Positions 52,552 through 63,003 of a stretch of DNA of 64,000 nt are shown piece after piece. The stretch is taken from positions 620,001 through 684,000 of the forward strand of contig NZ_CP119145.1 of NCBI RefSeq assembly GCF_029167625.1, read 5' to 3'. The stretch comes from Streptomyces sp. AM 4-1-1. GTDB lineage: Bacteria; Actinomycetota; Actinomycetes; Streptomycetales; Streptomycetaceae. The position numbers were made by a program, and so were the translations under genes. The notes under the pieces are model-generated. The model was not told the origin of the DNA. It saw only the letters and a program-made list of their open reading frames with translations, and searched no databases. Positions within the stretch are counted from its first letter, which is position 1. Each line of letters opens with the position of its first letter.

Positions 52552-53181
52552 TCAGTCCTCGTCGGCGAGGATCAGATACAACCGCTTGCGCGCGTCGTTG
52601 ACGACGCCGAGCGCCTTCTGCCGCTGATTCGCCGAGCCGGTCTTCCAGACCTGGGCGAAGGCCTCCATCAGACCGGCCCCGGCGTGCCGGATCTCGTTGG
52701 CGCTCTCCCAGTCGATCCCGCGCCCGGCCTCCTCCCAGGGCGCGTCCGGTCCGCTCTCGGACTCGGCGCGACCGGTGTCGGTGAGCGTGAACAGCTTCTT
52801 GCCGCCCTCGCTCGCGCTGGTGATCAGCCCCTCGTCCTCCAGCAGCTGGAGCGTGGGATAGACCGAACCCGGGCTGGGCCGCCAGGCCCCACCACTGCGC
52901 TCGCCGATCTCCTGGATCATCTCGTATCCGTGCATCGGCCGGTCCTTCAGCAGCGCCAGGATCGAAGCGCGCACATCACCGCGCCGCGCCCGTCCCCTGC
53001 CGCCGCCACGACCGCGTCCGCCGCCGAAGGGACCACCGAAAGGACCACCGCCGCCGAAGGGCGGCCCGAACGCCCCGAAGGCGGCCCGCCGCTCCTCGAA
53101 GTCTCCCCGGTCCCACCGCGGCGGTCCCTGGTGGTGGCCATGCCCATGTCCGTGCTCATGCTCGTGTCCGTGTGAACGCAT
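52552..53181 (-). CDS. PadR-family regulator with His/Gly-rich N-terminus
   Basis: A 209-residue PadR regulator. The winged HTH runs from about residue 60: RASILALLKDRPMHGYEMIQ, then SPGSVYPTLQLLEDEGLI. The first 25 residues contain eight His alternating with Gly and Glu (HGHEHEHGHGHGHH) and the next 35 are Gly/Phe/Arg-rich. The His stretch suggests metal binding. The ATG at 53181 has AAGGAG at six bases. A perfect palindrome 40 bp upstream is its probable operator. Confidence 0.9.
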   Translation of the reverse strand: MRSHGHEHEHGHGHGHHQGPPRWDRGDFEERRAAFGAFGPPFGGGGPFGGPFGGGRGRGGGRGRARRGDVRASILALLKDRPMHGYEMIQEIGERSGGAWRPSPGSVYPTLQLLEDEGLITSASEGGKKLFTLTDTGRAESESGPDAPWEEAGRGIDWESANEIRHAGAGLMEAFAQVWKTGSANQRQKALGVVNDARKRLYLILADED

Positions 53182-53221: not shown

Positions 53222-53231
53222 CGATATATCG
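53222..53231. promoter_or_regulatory. Palindrome CGATATATCG, candidate PadR operator
   Basis: CGATATATCG is a perfect 10-bp palindrome in an AT-rich block (ACGATATATCGCTAATAC) located 40 bp before the padR start. AT-rich palindromes of this kind are usual for PadR autoregulation. It lies just left of the transposon end. Confidence 0.5.
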
Positions 53232-53273
53232 CTAATACTCGTTCGGCAAGGTCTCGATGGGGTCTGTTGTCCC

Positions 53274-53344
53274 GTCTCACGCGAATTGGCCCCTGTCTCA
53301 GATGACCTGGTCCGATTCGCTCGTCGTCCCAGGTGATCTGGCCC
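53274..53344 (+). repeat. Left-end transposase-binding boxes (three)
   Basis: Three 19-bp boxes in direct order: GTCTCACGCGAATTGGCCC (53274), GTCTCAGATGACCTGGTCC (53295) and GTCCCAGGTGATCTGGCCC (53326). They share GTCTCAnnnnAnnTGG. This number and spacing fit TnsB-binding sites at a Tn7-like left end. The VOC gene starts 92 bp further in. Confidence 0.65.
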
Positions 53345-53435
53345 GTTGACGCTGCTCATGTCACGCGAGACCTCGGCCCGCCTGCCGTGGAACCCGGGGA
53401 TTTCGGTGAACGACACGCGCCAATATGGTGGGTCG

Positions 53436-53861
53436 ATGACGTCGATCAAGAAGTTCCAAGTCACCTTTGACTGCGCAGAACCTGAACGCCTCGCTCGTTT
53501 CTGGTGCGAGGTGCTGGGGTACGTCGTACCGCCGCCGGAGGGGTTTGCCACTTGGGACGCTTTCAAGGGCTCGCAGCCATCTGAGCAGCGGGATTCGTGG
53601 TTCGCCTGCATTGATCCCTCCGGTGTGGGCCCGCGGCTGTACTTCCAGCGCGTCCCCGAGGGGAAGGCCGCCAAGAACCGGGTGCATCTTGATGTGCGGG
53701 TCGGCACTGGACTCGTGGGTGAAGAGCGGCTCGCCGCACTCGAGGCCGAATGTGCACGGTTGGTCCCGCTTGGCGCGGTACACGTGCAAACGCTGTACGA
53801 CGGCAACGATGCGTGCATCCCGATGCTGGACATCGAGGGCAACGAGTTCTGTATCGACTGA
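53436..53861 (+). CDS. VOC/glyoxalase-like protein, transposon cargo
   Basis: A 141-residue vicinal-oxygen-chelate fold protein. It begins MTSIKKFQVTFDCAEPERLA and has the paired beta-alpha-beta pattern with RFWCEVLGYVVPP and VHLDVRVGTGL, ending MLDIEGNEFCID. Small glyoxalase-like proteins include antibiotic-binding resistance factors and dioxygenases; nothing here decides between them. It lies between the left boxes and tnsA and so is probably cargo. Confidence 0.8.
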   Translation: MTSIKKFQVTFDCAEPERLARFWCEVLGYVVPPPEGFATWDAFKGSQPSEQRDSWFACIDPSGVGPRLYFQRVPEGKAAKNRVHLDVRVGTGLVGEERLAALEAECARLVPLGAVHVQTLYDGNDACIPMLDIEGNEFCID

Positions 53862-53916
53862 GGGGGCCGCGAACCTGTGCCGTTCTCTCTACTCGTACGA
53901 GAGGGCCTGGTCTGTG

Positions 53917-53935
53917 GTCTCAAGTGATCTGCTTC
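53917..53935 (+). repeat. Isolated end-box-like site before tnsA
   Basis: GTCTCAAGTGATCTGCTTC resembles the left-end boxes (TGATCTG core). It lies 136 bp before the tnsA start. It may be an autoregulatory site for the transposase operon or an older left end. Confidence 0.5.
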
Positions 53936-54052
53936 TTGCGGTGTACGAAACCGGTGGTCGCTCGATGGGGTGACGCCTTCTGGATCCGGGGCATGGCATC
54001 GCACCGGGTGGCCGACGCTTACAGCAGGGGGGAGCGCGTCGGGGAGGTGGCC

Positions 54053-54811
54053 GTGAGCGAGCCTGCGGAGGCTGGATCCGCCTGGGAGTACGCGTCGGAC
54101 GTACAGGTGGGGTTCGTTGGCGTCGACGGGGTCGGGCGGCTTGGTTCACTGGCCCGCTACTGGGATGAGCCTTTCGAACGTGCCGCCCCGGTCAGGAAGT
54201 TCATCGCGTTCAAGGGACAGAAGAACTTCACGGGTGACTACTGGGCAGCGACCTCGCGTGACCTGGTGGGTTACGAGTCGTGGGTCGAGCGGGACGCCGC
54301 GATGGCCCTGGACTTCGACCCTTCCGTGGTTGCCCTGGCCTCGCAGCCCTTCAGTCTGACCTGGTGGGATGGCGAACGGGATCATCAGCACACCCCGGAC
54401 TACTTCGCTCGGCTGGCTGACGGCACTGGTGTGGTGGTCGATGTCCGTCCGGAGAGCCTCGTCGACGAGGAGGCGGCCGGGGTCTTCGCGTTCACCGAGG
54501 GAGTCTGCGCGACGGTGGGGTGGCAGTTCCGGCTGGTTGGGGACTTGGGGCAGCCGTTCCAAGCCAATCTGCGCTGGCTGGCGCGCTACCGGCACCTTCG
54601 TTGCTATCGGGCGTCGGTAGCAGCGTTGTTGCGGCAGCTGTTCGTCGAACCGCAGCGGCTCTTTATCGGGGCGGACCGTGTCGGTGACCGGGAGGCGGTG
54701 CTGCCGACGCTCTATCACCTGCTCTGGAAGCACGAACTGACGGCCGATCTGGTCTCGCGTCCGCTGGGCGGTGGGACGCTCGTCAGCCTGGCGACGGGGA
54801 GGACAGCGTGA
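54053..54811 (+). CDS. tnsA: TnsA-like transposase endonuclease subunit
   Basis: A 252-residue homologue of TnsA, the restriction-like nuclease that cuts the 5' ends during Tn7 transposition. After GYESWVERDAAMALDF (Glu, about residue 77) comes HTPDYFARLADGTGVVVDVRPES, with Asp in TPDYF and D-x-R where E/Q-x-K is usual. A C-terminal helical domain follows. The GTG at 54053 has GGAGG at five bases; an ATG at 53993 is an alternative. The stop overlaps tnsB by four bases (GTGA). Confidence 0.8.
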   Translation: MSEPAEAGSAWEYASDVQVGFVGVDGVGRLGSLARYWDEPFERAAPVRKFIAFKGQKNFTGDYWAATSRDLVGYESWVERDAAMALDFDPSVVALASQPFSLTWWDGERDHQHTPDYFARLADGTGVVVDVRPESLVDEEAAGVFAFTEGVCATVGWQFRLVGDLGQPFQANLRWLARYRHLRCYRASVAALLRQLFVEPQRLFIGADRVGDREAVLPTLYHLLWKHELTADLVSRPLGGGTLVSLATGRTA

Positions 54812-56895
54812 GGTCTGCGCGTCCGGGACGGCTGCGGCTGGGTGATCGGGTCAGGTTCGAGAGGAGTACGTACACGGTCGTCGCGCTGACCGGGATGCGG
54901 GTTCGCCTGGCTGATGTTCATGGCGCGGGCATGCTCATCGACCAGGTTCATCTCCAGGCTGCCGAGGACTTCGCCGTTCTCGGCACCGGCGAGCGGGCCG
55001 CTCTCGGCTCGGCAGCGCTACTGGACCATCTCCCGGAGAAGGCTGCGGAGCGGGCGTTGTGGTGGCAGCACCACTTGGTCGAGGTTCTGACGGGTCTGCC
55101 GCCGGATGCTCCGGAGGGAACTCTGCCCCGGCCCGAATACGACCCTTCGTGCCGGTCGCTTGCGGAACGCGAGCGGGCCAAGGCCGCGGAGCTGGCCGTT
55201 CTGGGCGAGGAGATCAGTGCACGGACGGTCAAGCGCAAGCGGCAGCGTTATGAGGCCGGCGGGGTTGCCGCGGTGGTGGACCATCGCCTCGCCCCGCACG
55301 CTTCGCTGCTGGGCCGGGCCGATCCTCGGGTGGTGGCGGCGATGCGCCAGGCCATTGCGGAAAGCGTCCCGGCGTCCACCCGCACGATCGAGTACGCGCG
55401 TTGGCGGACTGGCCGCATCCTGGCCGCCGAGCACGGCGAGAACGTGGTGGAAATGCCGTCGCGGGCGACGTTCTACCGCCTGTTCACGAAGCTGTCCGGC
55501 GGTATCTCGGTGACCGGGTCGGCCCGCACTCGCCAGTCGCTGGCCAACCAGCCGGAGGGGCCGTTCCGTTACGAGCAGGTCGCGGCGCCGGGCGAGTTGA
55601 TGCAGATCGACTCCACCCCGCTGGACGTGCTGGTGCGGCTTGAGGAAGGGGTGCCCGGCAGGGTCGAGCTCTGCGGCCTGGTCGATGTCGCCACCCGCAC
55701 CATCGCCGCCGCGGTCGTGCGGCCCACCACCAAGTCGGTGGACGCCTCCCTGCTGCTGGCCCGTGCTCTGACCCCGGAGCTGATGCGGCCCGGCTGGTCA
55801 GATGCGCTGAAGATGTCCCGTTCCGTCCTGCCGCACCGCAGGCTGCTGTCGCTGGACGAGCGGTTGGAACACGCGGCGGCCCGGCCGGTGATCATCCCGG
55901 AGACCATTGTCTGCGACCGGGGCAAGGCCTTCATCTCTGAGAACTTTCGCGCCGCATGCCGAACCCTGGAGATCAACTTTCAACCCTGCCATCCACGCTC
56001 ACCTGCGGAGAAGCCCCACATCGAGCGGACGCTCGAATCGGTGGCCACGCTGTTCTGCCAGTTCCTTTCCGGCTACCTGGGCCGCACGGCCGAGCATCGC
56101 GGACGGAACATCGAGGACGAGCCCTTGTGGTCGATGCTGGAGATCCAGGCACTTCTGGACGAGTGGCTCATCCACTGGCAGAACAGGCAGCATGACGGGC
56201 TCCGGGATCCCGGCAGTCCCGGCCGCACCTTCACGCCGAACCAGAAGTACGCCAGCCTTCTCGAGAGTGCCGACTATGTTCCCCTGGCCCTGACCGGGGA
56301 CGACTACGTCGAACTGCTGCCCGTGACCTGGCGGGCGGTCAACTCCTACGGCATCAAGATCAGCCACCGCATCTACGACTGCGCGGATCTGGGCCCCTTC
56401 CGGCGCCAGCCCTCCGGGGTCGCCCGCAAGAAGAACCTGTGGGAGATCCACCGCGACCCCTACGACGCCAGCTGGATCTGGGTCCGCAACCACTGGGAGG
56501 GCGGCTGGATTCCCGTCCCCTGGAAGCACCTCGGCACCGTCCCACAGCCCTTCGGCGATCTGGCCTGGGACCACGCCGCGGCCGACCTGCGTCAGAAGGG
56601 CGAGAGTGACCCGACCGAGGAACAGATCACCCAGGCGGTCGCAGAGCTTCTGATCCGGGCCAACCAGGGCCCTGGCAGCGGCGGGAAGCGGCCATCCCGG
56701 CGCGGCCGGAGAGTCGCCGCCCGGACCAGGGCCGCCGCCGAAGGCACCGGGCCTCGGCCGCCGAAGCCGCCCCGGGCAGACGACCCGCAGCCTCATGACG
56801 ACGAGGAAGCGGACAACACGCAGGACGATCCGGTCGCGAATGTCATCCCGCTCGGCGTCTTCGACCCCTTCAAGGAGGCTGACAAGCGATGGTGA
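54808..56895 (+). CDS. tnsB: TnsB-like DDE transposase
   Basis: A 695-residue retroviral-integrase-type transposase with a Mu-type C-terminal domain. The DDE residues are Asp in LMQIDSTPLDVLV (about residue 268), Asp in IVCDRGKAFISENF (about 370) and Glu in EKPHIERTLESV (about 407). HTH-rich DNA-binding domains precede it. The last 80 residues are a Lys/Arg/Pro-rich tail that may contact TnsC. It should bind the GTCTCA boxes and join 3' ends. Start is GTG 54808; the stop overlaps tnsC by seven bases. Confidence 0.9.
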   Translation: MRSARPGRLRLGDRVRFERSTYTVVALTGMRVRLADVHGAGMLIDQVHLQAAEDFAVLGTGERAALGSAALLDHLPEKAAERALWWQHHLVEVLTGLPPDAPEGTLPRPEYDPSCRSLAERERAKAAELAVLGEEISARTVKRKRQRYEAGGVAAVVDHRLAPHASLLGRADPRVVAAMRQAIAESVPASTRTIEYARWRTGRILAAEHGENVVEMPSRATFYRLFTKLSGGISVTGSARTRQSLANQPEGPFRYEQVAAPGELMQIDSTPLDVLVRLEEGVPGRVELCGLVDVATRTIAAAVVRPTTKSVDASLLLARALTPELMRPGWSDALKMSRSVLPHRRLLSLDERLEHAAARPVIIPETIVCDRGKAFISENFRAACRTLEINFQPCHPRSPAEKPHIERTLESVATLFCQFLSGYLGRTAEHRGRNIEDEPLWSMLEIQALLDEWLIHWQNRQHDGLRDPGSPGRTFTPNQKYASLLESADYVPLALTGDDYVELLPVTWRAVNSYGIKISHRIYDCADLGPFRRQPSGVARKKNLWEIHRDPYDASWIWVRNHWEGGWIPVPWKHLGTVPQPFGDLAWDHAAADLRQKGESDPTEEQITQAVAELLIRANQGPGSGGKRPSRRGRRVAARTRAAAEGTGPRPPKPPRADDPQPHDDEEADNTQDDPVANVIPLGVFDPFKEADKRW

Positions 56896-57944
56896 CCGCA
56901 ACCGATCAGCAGCCGGCACCCGGTCGGCAGGCCGGATGGCGACAGGCCCTGGATCAGGACGAACTGCACCGCTACCTCACGACCTTGGAGGGCTGGCGAG
57001 AGTTCACCACTCAAGATCCGGTCCCGCCCGACCTGTTGCCCGACAACATCCTCGCCGGGTTGGACCCGGACGCGCGGCAGGACTACGACGACAGCCGTCT
57101 CGACTACCACACGCGTCTGACCGTGGCCGCGACCTCCACCTTGCGCACCGTCGTTCATACCGGCAGGCGGCTGACCCTGCTGAATCGCCATGCGATCAGT
57201 GCCCGCCGGGGCCTGATCCTGTCCGGCCCGGCCGGCACCGGGAAGACCACCGCGCTGACCCAGTTCGGCAAGACCATCGAGGCCATCGACAAGCGTCAGC
57301 ACCCGGGCATCGGCGGCCGCATCCCTGTCGTCTACGTCACCGTCCCACCCGCCGCGACCTCACGCATGCTAGCCGTGGAGTTCGCCCGATTCCTGGGTCT
57401 GCCCGTCACCGTCCGCGCCAACATCACCGACGTGATCGAGGCCGTCTGCGGTGTCCTCATCGACGCGAGAGTCAGCGTCGTGTGTGTCGATGAGCTGCAC
57501 AACCTGTCCCTCACGACCCGCAGCGGCGCCGAGGTCTCGGACACCCTGAAGTACTTCTCCGAGCGCATCCCCGCCACCTTCGTCTATGCAGGAATCGACC
57601 TGGAAGCGAACGGACTGTTCGACGGCACCCGGGGACGACAGATCGCCGGCCGGTTCGGAGTCATCGAAACCGTCGCCTTCCCTCGCACCGAGGAGTGGAA
57701 CGGCCTGGTCACCACCCTCGAACAGGCCCTACGACTGCACCACCACCAGCCGGGGACTCTGGAAGGGCTGGCCCACTACCTCCACGACCGCACCGGCGGC
57801 ATGATCGGCTCGCTGTCCCACCTCATCCGCGGCGCCGCCCTCGACGCCATCCTGGACGGCACCGAGAAGATCACCCGCAAGTCCCTGCAGAACGTGAAAC
57901 TCGACCGCGCGGCCGAGACCCGGAAGTCCAAACCGGCCTCATGA
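56889..57944 (+). CDS. tnsC: TnsC/TniB-like AAA+ ATPase
   Basis: A 351-residue AAA+ regulator of transposition. Walker A is LILSGPAGTGKTTALTQFGK (about residue 115) and Walker B is VVCVDELHNL (about 200), followed by sensor motifs. TnsC proteins form filaments on target DNA and link the target selector to the transposase. The start is ATG 56889 inside the last codons of tnsB. The stop TGA overlaps the tniQ start ATG (57941) by four bases. Confidence 0.88.
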   Translation: MVTATDQQPAPGRQAGWRQALDQDELHRYLTTLEGWREFTTQDPVPPDLLPDNILAGLDPDARQDYDDSRLDYHTRLTVAATSTLRTVVHTGRRLTLLNRHAISARRGLILSGPAGTGKTTALTQFGKTIEAIDKRQHPGIGGRIPVVYVTVPPAATSRMLAVEFARFLGLPVTVRANITDVIEAVCGVLIDARVSVVCVDELHNLSLTTRSGAEVSDTLKYFSERIPATFVYAGIDLEANGLFDGTRGRQIAGRFGVIETVAFPRTEEWNGLVTTLEQALRLHHHQPGTLEGLAHYLHDRTGGMIGSLSHLIRGAALDAILDGTEKITRKSLQNVKLDRAAETRKSKPAS

Positions 57945-58993
57945 GCATCGTCGAGAGCGGCGTGATCAGCGGGAACCTCCGCCTGCTGCCCGTCCAGGTC
58001 CGCCCGCGAGGCGGCGAAGGAGTCCGGGCGTTCATCGTTCGCCTCGCCCACGCAAACCACCTGATTCCGGTCTATCTGCGGATGTTCCTCTGCGAACCGC
58101 CCGATCATCGAGGCCTCCCGAGTTGGTCGCGGCTGGCGGCCGTCACGGGCCGCGATCCGGACTTCCTGCGGATCACGCCGGAGACCCGACACTGTCTGGA
58201 GTGCGGGGCCGCCATGCCGCCTCTCGGCATCCTTGGACGTCAGGCTCTGCGTTGTTCGCAGGCTTGCCGCCAGAAGGTATACCGCAGACGCCACCCGTTC
58301 AGCGAGTGGCTGCGAGTGCCCTGCCGGCAGTGCGGCGAGACCATGCGGGTTAGGCCCGGACGGCGCCGTCACCTGTGCTCATCGCGCTGTCGTCGGGACG
58401 CTTATCTCGAACGACAGCGACGTCGCCAAGAACGATCCGACCAGACCGGGGAAACCAAACCACCCCTGTGTCCCATCTGTGAGCGTCCTTTGCCGCCCGG
58501 AAGTCCTTCTTCGAGACGGAGAACGTGTTCCCAACCGTGTCGTCAGCAGGCATACCGCTGGCGAAGTGCATCACCGCCTCGCCCTGTTCCCTCCCCGGCT
58601 GAAGCAGCGGAACCCCCGTCGCAGCCCCCGTCACCACGGCTCTGCGAGATCTGCTCGGCCACACTGCCTCCCGGCCCCAGCGGCGAACCTGCTCTCACCG
58701 CTGTCGCCAGCAGGCTTACCGATGGCGCATCAAACCGCCACCAACTTCGCCCCCGCCTCCCGAACCCGCAGCTTCATTCCACACGGCCGGGGCGAGGGCT
58801 GCCGCCCTCGCCCCGGCCCAGATCACACCGTCCTGCACGGTCTGCGCAGGACCACTGCCGACAGGTCGCGGTCGGGCTCAACGACGGACCTGTTCGCACC
58901 GTTGCCGGCAGAAGGCATATCGCCAACGACAGCCGATCCGCTGACCAGGGTCCATATCAGCTGAGATTTTCGACGCCCCCGCGTCTCAAATGA
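57941..58993 (+). CDS. tniQ: TniQ-like target selector with tandem zinc-finger modules
   Basis: The N-terminal 75 residues read LRLLPVQVRPRGGEGVRAFI and RLAHANHLIPVYLRMFLC, fitting a TniQ domain. Then come modules of the form C-x2-C...C-S-x2-C-R-x2-A-Y: residues 85-109, 128-150 and 177-200. A fourth begins CEIC at 235 but the frame changes at about 58680. In the next frame it continues RRTCSHRCRQQAYRWR and a fifth module CTVC...CSHRCRQKAYRQR, ending at TGA 58942-58944. One missing base would restore a protein with five modules. As written, the frame runs to 58993 with unrelated sequence after residue 247. TniQ proteins choose the target, so the fingers are the likely reader. Confidence 0.75.
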   Translation: MSIVESGVISGNLRLLPVQVRPRGGEGVRAFIVRLAHANHLIPVYLRMFLCEPPDHRGLPSWSRLAAVTGRDPDFLRITPETRHCLECGAAMPPLGILGRQALRCSQACRQKVYRRRHPFSEWLRVPCRQCGETMRVRPGRRRHLCSSRCRRDAYLERQRRRQERSDQTGETKPPLCPICERPLPPGSPSSRRRTCSQPCRQQAYRWRSASPPRPVPSPAEAAEPPSQPPSPRLCEICSATLPPGPSGEPALTAVASRLTDGASNRHQLRPRLPNPQLHSTRPGRGLPPSPRPRSHRPARSAQDHCRQVAVGLNDGPVRTVAGRRHIANDSRSADQGPYQLRFSTPPRLK

Positions 58994-59043
58994 TTTGGTC
59001 GTCACAGGTCACAGACCTGCCCCGAGACCAGATCATCTGCGAC
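58983..59043. repeat. Inner end-box-like sites after tniQ
   Basis: GTCTCAAATGATTTGGTCG lies at 58983-59001 on the plus strand and GTCGCAGATGATCTGGTCT reads on the minus strand from 59043. Both are close to the left-end boxes. Between them is a perfect palindrome CAGGTC-ACA-GACCTG (59005-59019). They could be the right end of an inner, older version of the element, or operator sites. The nested IS starts 21 bp further on. Confidence 0.55.
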
Positions 59044-59063
59044 GGGTCATCTGTCAAACGTTC

Positions 59064-59100
59064 GGCTCTGTCTCACATTCGGTGGTGACTCTGCGTGGTG
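59064..59100 (+). repeat. Left terminal inverted repeat of the IS (37 bp)
   Basis: It is exactly complementary to 60654-60690. The transposase GTG start lies within its last six bases. Confidence 0.95.
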
Positions 59101-60653
59101 AGTGTCGTTGACATCGATGTGATGGATGTCAACCAACTTGCGCAGATGGTATTTGCGGGGATATCTCCGCTGGTCATTGAGGATGTGGTCGACGAGGGCG
59201 AGCGGGTCGTGGTGAGGGCGCGGACTCCGCAGAAGACCGCGCCCTGCCCCGTGTGCGGGGCCTCGTCGGGGCGCGTTCACGGGTATCACTGGCGGACCGT
59301 GGCCGACGTACCGGTCGACGGCCGACGAGTGGTGGTCCGTGTACGGGTGCGGCGTCTGGTCTGTCCGACACACGGCTGCCGTCACACCTTCCGCGAGCAG
59401 GTGCCCGGGGTGCTGGAGCGTTATCAGCGACGCACCACCCGCCTGACCGCGCAGGTCAAGGCGGTATTCAAGGAGTTAGCGGGCCGGGCAGGGACGCGCG
59501 TACTGGCGATACTCGCTGTAGGCCTGTCGCGTCACACGGCTCTGCGGGCCCTGTTGCGGATTCCGTTGCCCACGGGACGGGCGCCCCGCGTGATCGGCGT
59601 CGACGATTTCGCTCTGCGCCGGCGGCACCGCTATGCCACCGTGGTGATCGACGCCGAGACCCATGAGCGGATCGACGTGCTGCCCGACCGCACGGCTGAC
59701 ACTCTGGAAGCCTGGCTGCGCGAACATCGGAGCGTCGAGATCGTGTGCCGTGACGGCTCGGCGACCTACGCCGAGGCCATCCGCCGCGCTCTGCCCGATG
59801 CAGTGCAGGTCGGTGACCGCCGGCATTTATGGCACAACCTGTGCGAAGCCGCCCTGAGCGAGATCAAGGCGCACAGCACCTGCTGGGCCACCGTGCTGGA
59901 GGCGCCCCTGTATGACGGGCCCCGCGCACGGACCACCCTGGAGCGCTGGCACCAGATTCACGACCTCCTCGACCAGGGCGTGGGTCTCCTCGAGTGCGGC
60001 CGCCGTCTGCATCTGGCCCTGAATACCGTCAAACGCTATGCCCGAGCCGACCGGCCCGAGCGGATGCTCCGCGTCCCGAAATACCGCGCCAGCCTCGTCG
60101 ATCCCTACCGCGAGCACCTGCGCAAACGCCGGGCTGACGACCCCGCCGTCCCCGTCCAGCACCTCTTCGGAGAGATCAAGGCCCTTGGCTTCACGGGCTG
60201 CCTCAACCTCCTGCACAAGTACATCAACCAAGGGCGCGCGGACGCCGACCGCAGCCATATCTCCGCACGCAGACTCGCCGGATGCTCCTCACCAGGCCCG
60301 ACAACCTCAAGGCCGAGCACCACGACCTCCTGGCCCGGCTCACCGCCGCCTGCCCCGAGTTGACCCAACTGGCAACCCACATCCGGACCTTCGCTCTACT
60401 TCTGAAGCCTCAGCCAGAAAACGCCGATGCACTCGACCGATGGGTCGCCCAGGTCCGCGCGGCCGATCTGCCGTATCTGCACGCCTTCACCCGCGGTCTC
60501 GAGCGAGACCGCGACGCTGTGATCGCCGCATTCACACTCCCGTACAGCAACGGCCCGACCGAGGGCGTCAACACCAAGACCAAGCGGATTGCCCGCCAGA
60601 TGCACGGACGAGCAGGCTTCACCCTCCTTCGCCACCGCATCCTCCTCGGATAA
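59095..60653 (+). pseudogene. ISL3-family transposase, frameshifted
   Basis: The first part reads an N-terminal zinc finger (CPVCGASSGRVHGYHWRTVA...CPTHGC, about residues 43-90). The ISL3 DDE core follows: VIGVDDFALRRRHRYATVVID (Asp) and EIVCRDGSATYAEAIRRALP (Asp). At about 60275 the phase changes: after ARRLAG the continuation is found one frame over from ATG 60282 as MLLTRPDNLKAEHHDLLARL, TLPYSNGPTEGVNTKTK (Glu) and stop at 60653. One lost base near GCCGGATG explains it. The original protein would be about 515 residues. Confidence 0.85.
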
Positions 60654-60690
60654 CACCACGCAGAGTCACCACCGAATGTGAGACAGAGCC
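60654..60690 (-). repeat. Right terminal inverted repeat of the IS (37 bp)
   Basis: An exact inverted copy of 59064-59100. It begins at the base after the transposase stop. Confidence 0.95.
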
Positions 60691-60711
60691 GCTCTTTTGA
60701 CAGTCCCTGGG

Positions 60712-61191
60712 CTATGTCTGACCTCCGTGTCGATGAGCGTTCCAGAGGCGTCTGAGGGCTTCGAGTTCGGTTCGAGGGAAGTGTTCACCCCATTTACCTC
60801 GGTAGCCGCTCTCGTCGTAGGTCTGAACCACCTCGTCGAAGCAGCGGATCACGGCTCGAGCTAGCGCGTCGACGTCGAGTTGGCTCGACCAGATTTCGGT
60901 GCCCTTGTTGTCGTGGTCGCTGCCGCGGCGCAATTCCAGGAGGCGAACCCAGGCGTCGTCGCCCTGGCGGTAGAAGATCCACCGGAAGGCGGTGGGCTCG
61001 GCTTCGAACTGCGCTCGGGTGTCCGTCTCGCCTGAGACGAGCCGGGCCACGGCAGTCAGGAGCTCCTCTGGGGCGTTAGTGATGTAGGACGCGGTGAGCT
61101 CGACTTGGGCCTTTTCGTCTTCAACTGTGCAGTTGGCCCAGCCATGTCCGTTGAGCGTCCAGGCCATGCGCATGCCGGTAGTCACGTCCAT
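60712..61191 (-). CDS. Hypothetical protein, transposon cargo
   Basis: A 159-residue soluble protein starting MDVTTGMRMAWTLNGHGWAN. It contains FRWIFYRQGDDAWVRLLELR and the C-terminal VVQTYDESGYRGKWGEHFP. No domain is recognised. The start overlaps the stop of the next gene by ten bases, so both are read from one transcript. Codon use is less extreme than the chromosomal genes beside the transposon, consistent with transfer. Confidence 0.65.
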   Translation of the reverse strand: MDVTTGMRMAWTLNGHGWANCTVEDEKAQVELTASYITNAPEELLTAVARLVSGETDTRAQFEAEPTAFRWIFYRQGDDAWVRLLELRRGSDHDNKGTEIWSSQLDVDALARAVIRCFDEVVQTYDESGYRGKWGEHFPRTELEALRRLWNAHRHGGQT

Positions 61192-61838
61192 TCCGTACCG
61201 AGCGGCGTCGGCGGTATGCCCGGCGCGGGAAGAGCGAGAACGCGGGCAAGGGCGGCGGCCAGAGGAACGGAGTGGTGAGGCAGGTGCTCGGAAACCCAGT
61301 CCGTTGCCGCCGCGAGAAACTCGGTCAGGTCGTGCTCTGCACTGGCGAGCAGCTGGCGGAGCTCGGTGACTGACAGTTCGATCACTGGACTGTCATTCCG
61401 GTCGGTGTCGACGGTGAGGCGGATGGTATCCCCATGGCGCTCGGCCAGCGACGGCTGCGGATCGTGGCCGTACCCGATGATGCCGCTGCCGTCGAGGACC
61501 TGGTACCAGTCGGGCCAGTCCTCCAGTCCGTCACAGCAGCCAGGCGAGAAGGTGATGCCCGTGGCGATCTCCGTGACACGCAGGCCGCCCGCCGCATAGA
61601 GGTTGTCGAGGTTCAGCAGCCCGTGGAGGAAGCCACTGAGAGGCTCGGCTGGCCGAGGCGGAAGGTCGCCATCGTCTGCGGGGTCCACGTCATTGCAGGC
61701 GGCGATGCGCATGAGCGCCGTCCCGATCTCGACGGGTGAGAGTTCACCGCTGAGCGGCAGGAAGTTGAACCGCTCGGTCTCGGCGACAGGCCAGAGGTCG
61801 AAGCCATCGGGGGTGTTCATCTCCAGTACAGGCTGCAT
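61182..61838 (-). CDS. Hypothetical protein, transposon cargo
   Basis: A 218-residue acidic protein of unknown function. It begins MQPVLEMNTPDGFDLWPVAE and contains GFLHGLLNLDNLYAAGGLRV and PGCCDGLEDWPDWYQVLDG. Such proteins resemble immunity or DUF-type proteins in general build only. The ATG at 61838 is taken because AGG stands eight bases before it; GTG at 61847 is an alternative. It precedes and overlaps the smaller gene. Confidence 0.65.
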   Translation of the reverse strand: MQPVLEMNTPDGFDLWPVAETERFNFLPLSGELSPVEIGTALMRIAACNDVDPADDGDLPPRPAEPLSGFLHGLLNLDNLYAAGGLRVTEIATGITFSPGCCDGLEDWPDWYQVLDGSGIIGYGHDPQPSLAERHGDTIRLTVDTDRNDSPVIELSVTELRQLLASAEHDLTEFLAAATDWVSEHLPHHSVPLAAALARVLALPAPGIPPTPLGTEWT

Positions 61839-61996
61839 CACGATCACCTGGCGAAGTGTTCCCCATCCGTCACCGACGTCGCCTCCCGATTACGCCGAGC
61901 ATCCTCGTCTCCGCCAGCCTCAAATAGCTAGCGACTGTTCTGCGGCCAGGGCCCAGGCGTACGGGTGGGATCCCGGGCCGGACCGGGCCCGGGGCT

Positions 61997-62126
61997 GGCT
62001 CACTTTCAACGAGGCTGGACAGTTCGGCCCATCTTCCATGAGACGGATTGAGCAGTGGCCCAGTTTCGCTGAGACGGACCGTCGTCGACCCACCTTCAAT
62101 GAGACGTCCCCCAGCTTCGATGAGAC
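61997..62126 (-). repeat. Right-end transposase-binding boxes (five)
   Basis: Five 19-bp boxes on the minus strand: GTCTCATCGAAGCTGGGGG, GTCTCATTGAAGGTGGGTC, GTCTCAGCGAAACTGGGCC, GTCTCATGGAAGATGGGCC and GCCTCGTTGAAAGTGAGCC, from 62126 inward. Consensus GTCTCAnngAAnnTGG. The first two are 21 bp apart and the rest about 30, matching the left end. No gene is seen between 61839 and 62181. Confidence 0.75.
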
Positions 62127-62181
62127 AAGTCACCGGGATTGGCCCTGTCGCCCTCTTCCCGGCCGCTCTACGGTCATGGCC

Positions 62182-63003
62182 ATGAGGATTCGAATCGTGG
62201 ACGCGTTCACCGACCGCCCTTTCGCGGGCAACCCGGCGGGGGTTCTCCTGCTGGATTCCGCGGCCTTCCCCGAAGACGACCGGCTTCAGCGGATCGCCAC
62301 GGAGGTGAATCTCTCGGAGACGGCCTTCGCCCACCCCCTTCCGCCGGGCGGCGAGGCGGACTGGGCACTGCGCTGGTTCACCCCGACCACCGAGGTCGAC
62401 ATGTGCGGACACGCCACTCTCGCCACCGCCCATGTCCTGCACACCACGGGCACGGCGACGGGGACCGTGCGCTTCACCGCGCGCTGCGGAATCCTGACGT
62501 CGGTCGCCCACCCGGACGGCTCGCTCACACTCGACTTCCCCACCGCCCCGCTGACACCGGCCGCCGCCCCCGTCGGCCTGGCCGCCGCGCTGGGCGCCGA
62601 ACCCGTCTCGGTCCACGACACCGGGACACACCTCGGTGATCTGCTCGTCGAGCTGGCCGACGAGGCGACCGTCCGGGGCCTGACACCGGACTTCGCCGCA
62701 CTCGCCGCGTGTTCACGCCGTGGCGTCATCGCCACCGCCGCGGCCAGTGATCCCTCCCCCGGCCACGACTACGTCTCGCGCGGCTTCTTCCCCAGGGTCG
62801 GCATCGACGAGGACCCGGTGACCGGCAGCGCGCACACCGCCCTGGCCCCCTTCTGGTCGGCCAGGCTGGGCCGAGACGAACTGACCGGCCTCCAGGCGTC
62901 GGCCCGCTCGGGCCTGGTCCGCACCGCGCTGCGCGGCGAGCGCACCCTGCTGACCGGCGACGCCGTCACCGTCATCGAGGGCGAACTCCTCACCGGCGTC
63001 TGA
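62182..63003 (+). CDS. PhzF-family protein
   Basis: A 273-residue PhzF/DapF-fold protein. The catalytic-site pattern begins MRIRIVDAFTDRPFAGNPAG, with the active Glu in LSETAFAHP (about residue 45) and GHATLATAHVL (about 76). The C-terminal half mirrors this with DEDPVTGSAHTALAP. Members are isomerases, one acting in phenazine synthesis; no phenazine genes are here. An ATG at 62176 is possible. The start lies 50 bp right of the transposon. Confidence 0.88.
   Translation: MRIRIVDAFTDRPFAGNPAGVLLLDSAAFPEDDRLQRIATEVNLSETAFAHPLPPGGEADWALRWFTPTTEVDMCGHATLATAHVLHTTGTATGTVRFTARCGILTSVAHPDGSLTLDFPTAPLTPAAAPVGLAAALGAEPVSVHDTGTHLGDLLVELADEATVRGLTPDFAALAACSRRGVIATAAASDPSPGHDYVSRGFFPRVGIDEDPVTGSAHTALAPFWSARLGRDELTGLQASARSGLVRTALRGERTLLTGDAVTVIEGELLTGV

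Follow-up and report, generated by a model that had tools for sequence, protein, structure and literature searches.

Tn7 of Escherichia coli carries TnsABC and TnsD and inserts at attTn7, at glmS, at a fixed distance and with a 5-bp duplication. Transposons of the Tn5053/Tn402 type encode a resolvase and lack TnsA. Here a 64-kb stretch of DNA from Streptomyces sp. AM 4-1-1 (the window; positions 620001–684000 of contig C1 of the 7.47-Mb genome) is analyzed. Between its divergent genes padR and phzF lie a 5,782-bp Tn7-like transposon, in this report named element A, and parts of other mobile elements. Comparison with other genomes suggests that mobile elements are very probably stacked at this one padR–phzF site and that a TniQ protein with a row of zinc fingers sets the fixed distance of insertion.

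Element A resembles Tn7 in TnsA, TnsB and TnsC, in the end arrays of (here predicted) binding sites, in the 5-bp duplication and in the fixed distance from a conserved chromosomal site. It differs in that the site is the upstream region of padR, that TniQ carries a row of zinc fingers in place of the helix-turn-helix extension of TnsD, and that several element families use one site. With TnsA present and no resolvase found among its five predicted genes (Pfam and NCBIfam), it also differs from the Tn5053/Tn402 type. Cas families were not found among these genes either, so the element is not of the CRISPR-associated transposon type.

The Actinobacteria-dominated TnsB clade 2 was reported to have no experimentally characterized member as of 2021 (Benler et al. 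2021, PMC8649781). The elements of the window probably belong to this broad clade. PadR and PhzF are absent from the main text of that paper, and no padR site or finger-bearing TniQ was found in the passages compared. In Tn6022 the separate protein TnsF, with multiple zinc fingers and an inactivated tyrosine recombinase domain, targets comM (Faure et al. 2023, PMC10293859). Both systems combine a Tn7-like target selector, here a putative one, with multiple zinc fingers; in the elements reported here, however, the fingers form part of TniQ itself and insertion takes place at padR, which the main text of that paper does not mention. Tn7706 of Rhodococcus erythropolis (19,377 bp; PMC12915292) is, by its description, similar to element A in carrying tnsA, tnsB, tniB and tniQ in an actinobacterium. 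No report of a padR/phzF attachment site or of a finger-array TniQ was found in a literature search that had preprints and most subscription journals outside its scope.

The padR–phzF gap as an attachment site

The site is flanked by padR (52555–53181, minus strand; PF03551, 6e-22) and phzF (62182–62991, plus strand; PF02567, 1.1e-59). Upstream of padR lies the putatively operator-like palindrome CGATATATCG (53222–53231), which is conserved across the sites compared and serves as zero point for insertion distances. A consensus of 79 of the 81 distinct sequences shows strong conservation of the region upstream of padR. The pattern CGATATATCG-N-TGTCCYG occurs in 25 of 246 genomes; judged by sequence and position, it is located at padR in 18 of them, at another locus in five, without a PadR match in one (G258) and as a chance match in an empty gap in one (G026).

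Gap lengths were obtained for 102 Streptomyces genomes. The gap is shorter than 300 bp in 44 genomes and measures between 300 bp and 45 kb in 57; one is unusable (G081, a partial match with negative length). These gaps derive from 107 phzF rows, three of which do not belong to a divergent pair on one contig and two of which (G072 and G123) have padR on another contig. Fourteen of 121 same-genus genomes were left out for a weak, partial or missing phzF match (G010, G035, G061, G067, G068, G070, G074, G103, G106, G112, G113, G129, G137 and G144). The survey covered the padR–phzF pair alone.

Profiles of transposon ends match 27 of 72 sites and the reversed control matches none of the 72. Fifteen of the matched sites had served as profile seeds; the other 12 had not, and they include one weak match (G015, E 0.046). 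Among the 57 occupied gaps, a recognized end is present in 18 of the 56 that were searchable (G140 was outside this search). Because of the spread of gap lengths and these profile matches, the padR–phzF gap is, as judged from genome comparison, a recurrent attachment site for at least three groups of Tn7-like transposons in Streptomyces.

A tip can be named in 21 cases; in 19 of them, which comprise four end types (A, B, C and D), it lies 36–42 bp from the palindrome. Thus, the spacing between insertion and conserved sequence is fixed, as in TnsD-type targeting. In the window the insertion point is foreign DNA of an ISL3 element and nevertheless lies 36 bp from the palindrome. At locus L085 the gene beyond the element is ArgG, not phzF. 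Exact 5-bp duplications were found in six of ten site insertions with both ends read (the window, L074, L085, L193 and the D elements of genomes G104 and G080).

The A elements of the window, L043, L044 and L024 are about 91% alike at TnsB. B-type elements (TnsB 56–60% identical) stand behind padR in L051, L053, L074, L085 and L092; in L051 and L092 a second, longer TniQ without fingers follows the finger TniQ. The 45-kb gap of G104 contains three tnsABC sets, two of them with an interrupted gene, and four finger-TniQ matches. Its D element (789578–798265, duplication ACTAG) lies between padR and A with its tip at 39 bp, and the tip of A is 2 bp past the second copy of the D duplication. Stacks are also present in the window (A, ISL3 and a remnant of C) and in G025 (A and C). 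A new element can insert between padR and an older one.

Two further insertions in the gap (L193 in G309 and L187 in G024) are cassettes of less than 1 kb with Tn7-like ends, a single gene and no transposase. The L193 protein is a DUF2199 protein and its cassette has the exact duplication CGCCC. By their gene content, both are single-gene, putatively non-autonomous elements.

Element A, its ISL3 target and element C

Nine loci with close TnsB relatives were compared with the window at the DNA level. The alignment of L044 starts at padR, takes in the transposase genes and, with one break, reaches the position that corresponds to 59049; phzF follows about 110 bp further. The homology of L045 and L024 stops at the same point, and so does that of L047 as judged by its letters. 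Element A therefore comprises 53268–59049 (plus strand). Its tips are TGTCCCGTCTCA on the left and, read inward, TGACCCGTCGCA on the right. The left end (53268–53346) contains boxes at 53274, 53295 and 53326. The right end (58983–59049) contains one box at 58983 on the plus strand and one at 59025–59043 on the minus strand. The A-type box of relatives reads GTCTCAnnnGATCTGG; the window has a degenerate form (GTCTCACGCGAATTGG) as its first left box.

The sequence-only reading had described coupled tnsA-tnsB-tnsC-tniQ genes, which is borne out. tnsA (53993–54811) passes the curated cut-off of NF033179 (TnsA_like_Actin, 7.6e-82). tnsB (54808–56895; rve and Mu transposase C-terminal) is assigned by homologs and by matches below the curated cut-offs. 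tnsC (56889–57944) encodes an AAA ATPase of the TniB family (PF05621, 1.9e-15, above the curated cut-off). tniQ (57941–58993), with a zinc-finger array of which three fingers are intact, is assigned by comparison with relatives. All four genes are on the plus strand. With a TnsB of the rve/Mu type, the AAA ATPase TnsC, TnsA, TniQ, arrays of putative transposase binding sites on both ends and a 5-bp duplication, element A is Tn7-like, and the earlier assignment of a Tn7-like element with TnsA and a zinc-finger TniQ, its left tip at 53268 in the divergent padR–phzF gap, holds.

The catalytic motif of TnsA, PD-(D/E)xK, ends in lysine. This lysine is replaced by Arg in all 69 motif-bearing loci (81 examined; some are copies of one element). 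A further tnsABC set of this genome, with a TniQ of two fingers, lies on the 296-kb contig (G000 C2, 97459–99492; L003 and L023). The A elements outside padR adjoin ends of other box types (at position 1706 in L045 and after 11686 in L047), which perhaps points to another shared site.

The cargo gene of element A (53436–53861, plus strand) encodes a VOC/glyoxalase-like protein (PF18029, 7.1e-25) and has no DNA match in L024 and L047. It sits between two A-type boxes, the additional one being located past the gene at 53917–53936 (plus strand). A gene 80–96% identical to it recurs in padR–phzF gaps or beside padR (L043, L044, L100, L139, L183, L194, L200, L243 and others), also without transposase genes (L139 and L200).

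A 5-bp duplication is expected for element A, since more distant relatives carry such duplications: G025 has two copies, identical where shared and one of them with a 1.7-kb insertion, with the duplications CCGTG and ACCGC. Away from the padR site, the family loci L025 and L026 have exact 5-bp duplications. Element A is flanked by TCTGT on both sides (53263–53267 and 59050–59054).

The flanks belong to an older ISL3 element. Its severed left tip, GGGTCTGT (53260–53267, plus strand), stands left of A, and TCTGTCAAACG... stands right of A, where the body of the ISL3 element (59055–60707, plus strand) is identified by homology. The terminal repeat of ISL3 elements in other Streptomyces is GGGTCTGTCAAACGTTCGGCTCTG or similar. 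Joined, the two flanks of A yield a 24-base ISL3 end, which occurs exactly in one other compared sequence, the plasmid L247 of Streptomyces sp. NBC_01766. As the tip letters flank A on both sides, A inserted into the ISL3 tip with duplication of TCTGT, and as the joined flanks rebuild an end found intact in L247, the ISL3 element is the older one. ISL3 homology in plasmids begins at 59050, i.e. at the right TCTGT copy; TCTGT is nevertheless accepted as the duplication because the ISL3 tip is also present left of A and the joined end exists in L247. The ISL3 transposase (59095–60653) is split across two frames, the first part being 59095–60363 (plus strand; NF033550) and the remainder lying in 60282–60653. 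Target duplications of ISL3 elements comprise 8 bp. This ISL3 element has none (TCTCGATG versus TGGGCTAT), which suggests that a deletion beside it took away the remainder of element C.

The boxes at the right of the gap (62.0–62.13 kb) read GTCTCAnnGAAnnTGG and are of another type than those of A. The array (62010–62132, minus strand, tip 62132) is the surviving end of a second Tn7-like element, C, whose other end is lost. Paired boxes of the C type occur in two of 61 genomes, the window's and G025; in the latter the C tip lies 5 bp past the right end of its A element. The predicted cargo of C (61182–61847, minus strand) has an 86% identical protein in the padR–phzF gap of G111. There, a related C-type end in the opposite orientation lies 40 bp from the palindrome, followed by the homologous gene. 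The gene to the left (60712–61191, minus strand), presumably also cargo, has no Pfam match to 0.1 and a sub-threshold NCBIfam match only.

The sequence-only reading had joined both arrays into a single 8.9-kb element (53268–62132), which is hardly credible. It had correctly noted the TG tips, the start of each array six bases further in and the spacings of 21 and then 30–31 bp. Its GTCTCA boxes are exact at 53274 and 53295 (plus strand) and at 62039–62044, 62070–62075, 62100–62105 and 62121–62126 (minus strand), whereas the third left box (53326) reads GTCCCA and the fifth right box (62010–62015) reads GCCTCG. GTCTCA by itself is not enriched across the window (24 observed, 30.7 expected), and four copies on one strand within 90 bp were seen in none of 1,000 simulated 64-kb sequences (first-order Markov). 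The box types of the two arrays differ, however, and the right ends of homologs correspond to 59049. The outer flanks of 53268 and 62132 are TCTGT and CCGGG, so a duplication fits 53268/59049 alone, and the joined flanks of A restore an intact ISL3 end. Furthermore, the gap of G111 contains an end of the right-array type and the same cargo gene, and tblastn detects no TnsA, TnsB or TnsC there. The right tip of A at 62132 is thus abandoned. Of the alternative ends named by the same reading, 59.05 kb agrees with the homologs and the left one at 53.9 kb failed. Neither the ISL3 tip around A nor the repeated use of the gap figured in that reading.

TniQ zinc fingers and their proposed part in the choice of the site

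The TniQ of the window has no Pfam match of its own. Its relatives carry PF06527 (TniQ), one from G080 matching at 1.8e-5, just under the cut-off. The readable TniQ proteins of the padR site have three to five tandem zinc fingers; that of L044 (340 residues) has five CxxC...CSxxC fingers. These fingers match DUF2116 and are probably treble clefs. Among 5.8 billion proteins the family is represented by 32 clusters, at the sensitivity of the search used.

A search of 199 genomes with a TniQ alignment resulted in eight matches below 1e-30, a cut-off picked after inspection of the list; the next match (2.2e-22) spans the TniQ core only. Seven are inside padR–phzF gaps: G104 contributes four, and G025, G080 and the window contribute one each. 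The eighth is on a plasmid contig (C2) of the genome from which the window comes. This search scored eleven candidates per genome, and the position searches compared with it the two best per genome. L045, which has only a TniQ without fingers, has flanks of 1.7 and 7.7 kb that match neither PadR nor PhzF; the same applies to L046, with a left flank of merely 0.2 kb.

The TnsB proteins of the padR site fall into three clades in a quick tree of 67 TnsB sequences, for which the program warned of long branches joining. The ten padR-site rows of this tree need five changes (four without the rows of unknown flank), at least three of which are forced by well-supported branches. A readable finger TniQ is present in nine of the ten rows; in L074 the reading frame diverges past the first CxxC.

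By analogy with TnsD of Tn7 at glmS, the finger TniQ would select the site. TnsB would bind the end boxes, TnsA and TnsB would cut and TnsC would bridge. The C-terminal row of treble-clef fingers would recognize the conserved promoter/operator region of padR and thereby fix the insertion distance; a candidate for the bound stretch is TCGCGATGC-TCAACGATATATCGGAA..TCG..G.CAA. Insertion should be harmless because the insertion point is outside both padR and phzF. It is conceivable, if somewhat short of an even chance, that the array directly reads this region, that number and sequence of the fingers set the target, and that the module was acquired by three TnsB lineages so that its exchange retargets an element.

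Several observations weigh against a shared site targeted by the finger TniQ. The TniQ of the window loses its frame after finger 3 and departs from its relatives, and the padR-site matches below 1e-30 come from four genomes only. Outside the site, TniQ proteins with two fingers are encoded at L047 and in the plasmid copy L023. At L090 (three fingers) the left end is lost and no PhzF is seen to the right, and a profile search found no TniQ in the decayed padR-site loci L085 and L100. The D elements of G104 and G080 are oriented opposite to A and B. Two tip distances are 50 and 51 bp, and three further profile matches without a tip (L209, L210 and L201) are outside the distance count. No matching duplication is present in L053, L044 and L024; in L187 four of five bases match in a shifted position, and the only candidate right end of the A element in G104, 34 kb off, has none. 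L045 and L047, away from the site, also lack one. Nine of the 18 genomes with the palindrome-TGTCCYG pattern at padR gave no profile match. Of the 56 occupied gaps other than the window's, 55 were searched, and 38 of these have no recognizable Tn7-like end in the first 420 bp; by eye, the start of the G108 gap holds an ArgG-like gene.

These 38 gaps would fit a gap that is merely tolerant, where insertions survive without being recognized. This is improbable, as four end types lie at 36–42 bp in nearly all nameable cases, two insertions in G104 are 2 bp apart and the reversed profile matches nothing. Even less plausible is one ancient insertion that was inherited by descent and decayed in most lineages. 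The close similarity of the A elements at a common site would agree with it, but duplications, end types and TnsB clades differ, the duplications of six cases are independent, insertions are stacked and 44 of the 102 genomes have short gaps. Recognition by another factor, such as the host PadR bound to its operator or the additional TniQ in B elements, with the fingers serving otherwise, is doubtful but deserves more weight. The palindrome CGATATATCG presumably resembles a PadR operator, and the B elements L051 and L092 do have a finger-less TniQ in addition; the trait common to A, B and D elements at the site, on the other hand, is the finger TniQ.

If targeting by the finger TniQ is confirmed, the Tn7-like transposons of actinobacteria would gain a defined and directly testable attachment site. 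With its finger array, TniQ would represent a target selector of a new kind, perhaps open to retargeting. Such targeting would partly account for the variation of the padR–phzF gap, between 78 bp and 45 kb in the measured Streptomyces genomes, and would point to a natural safe site for gene insertion in this industrially important genus.

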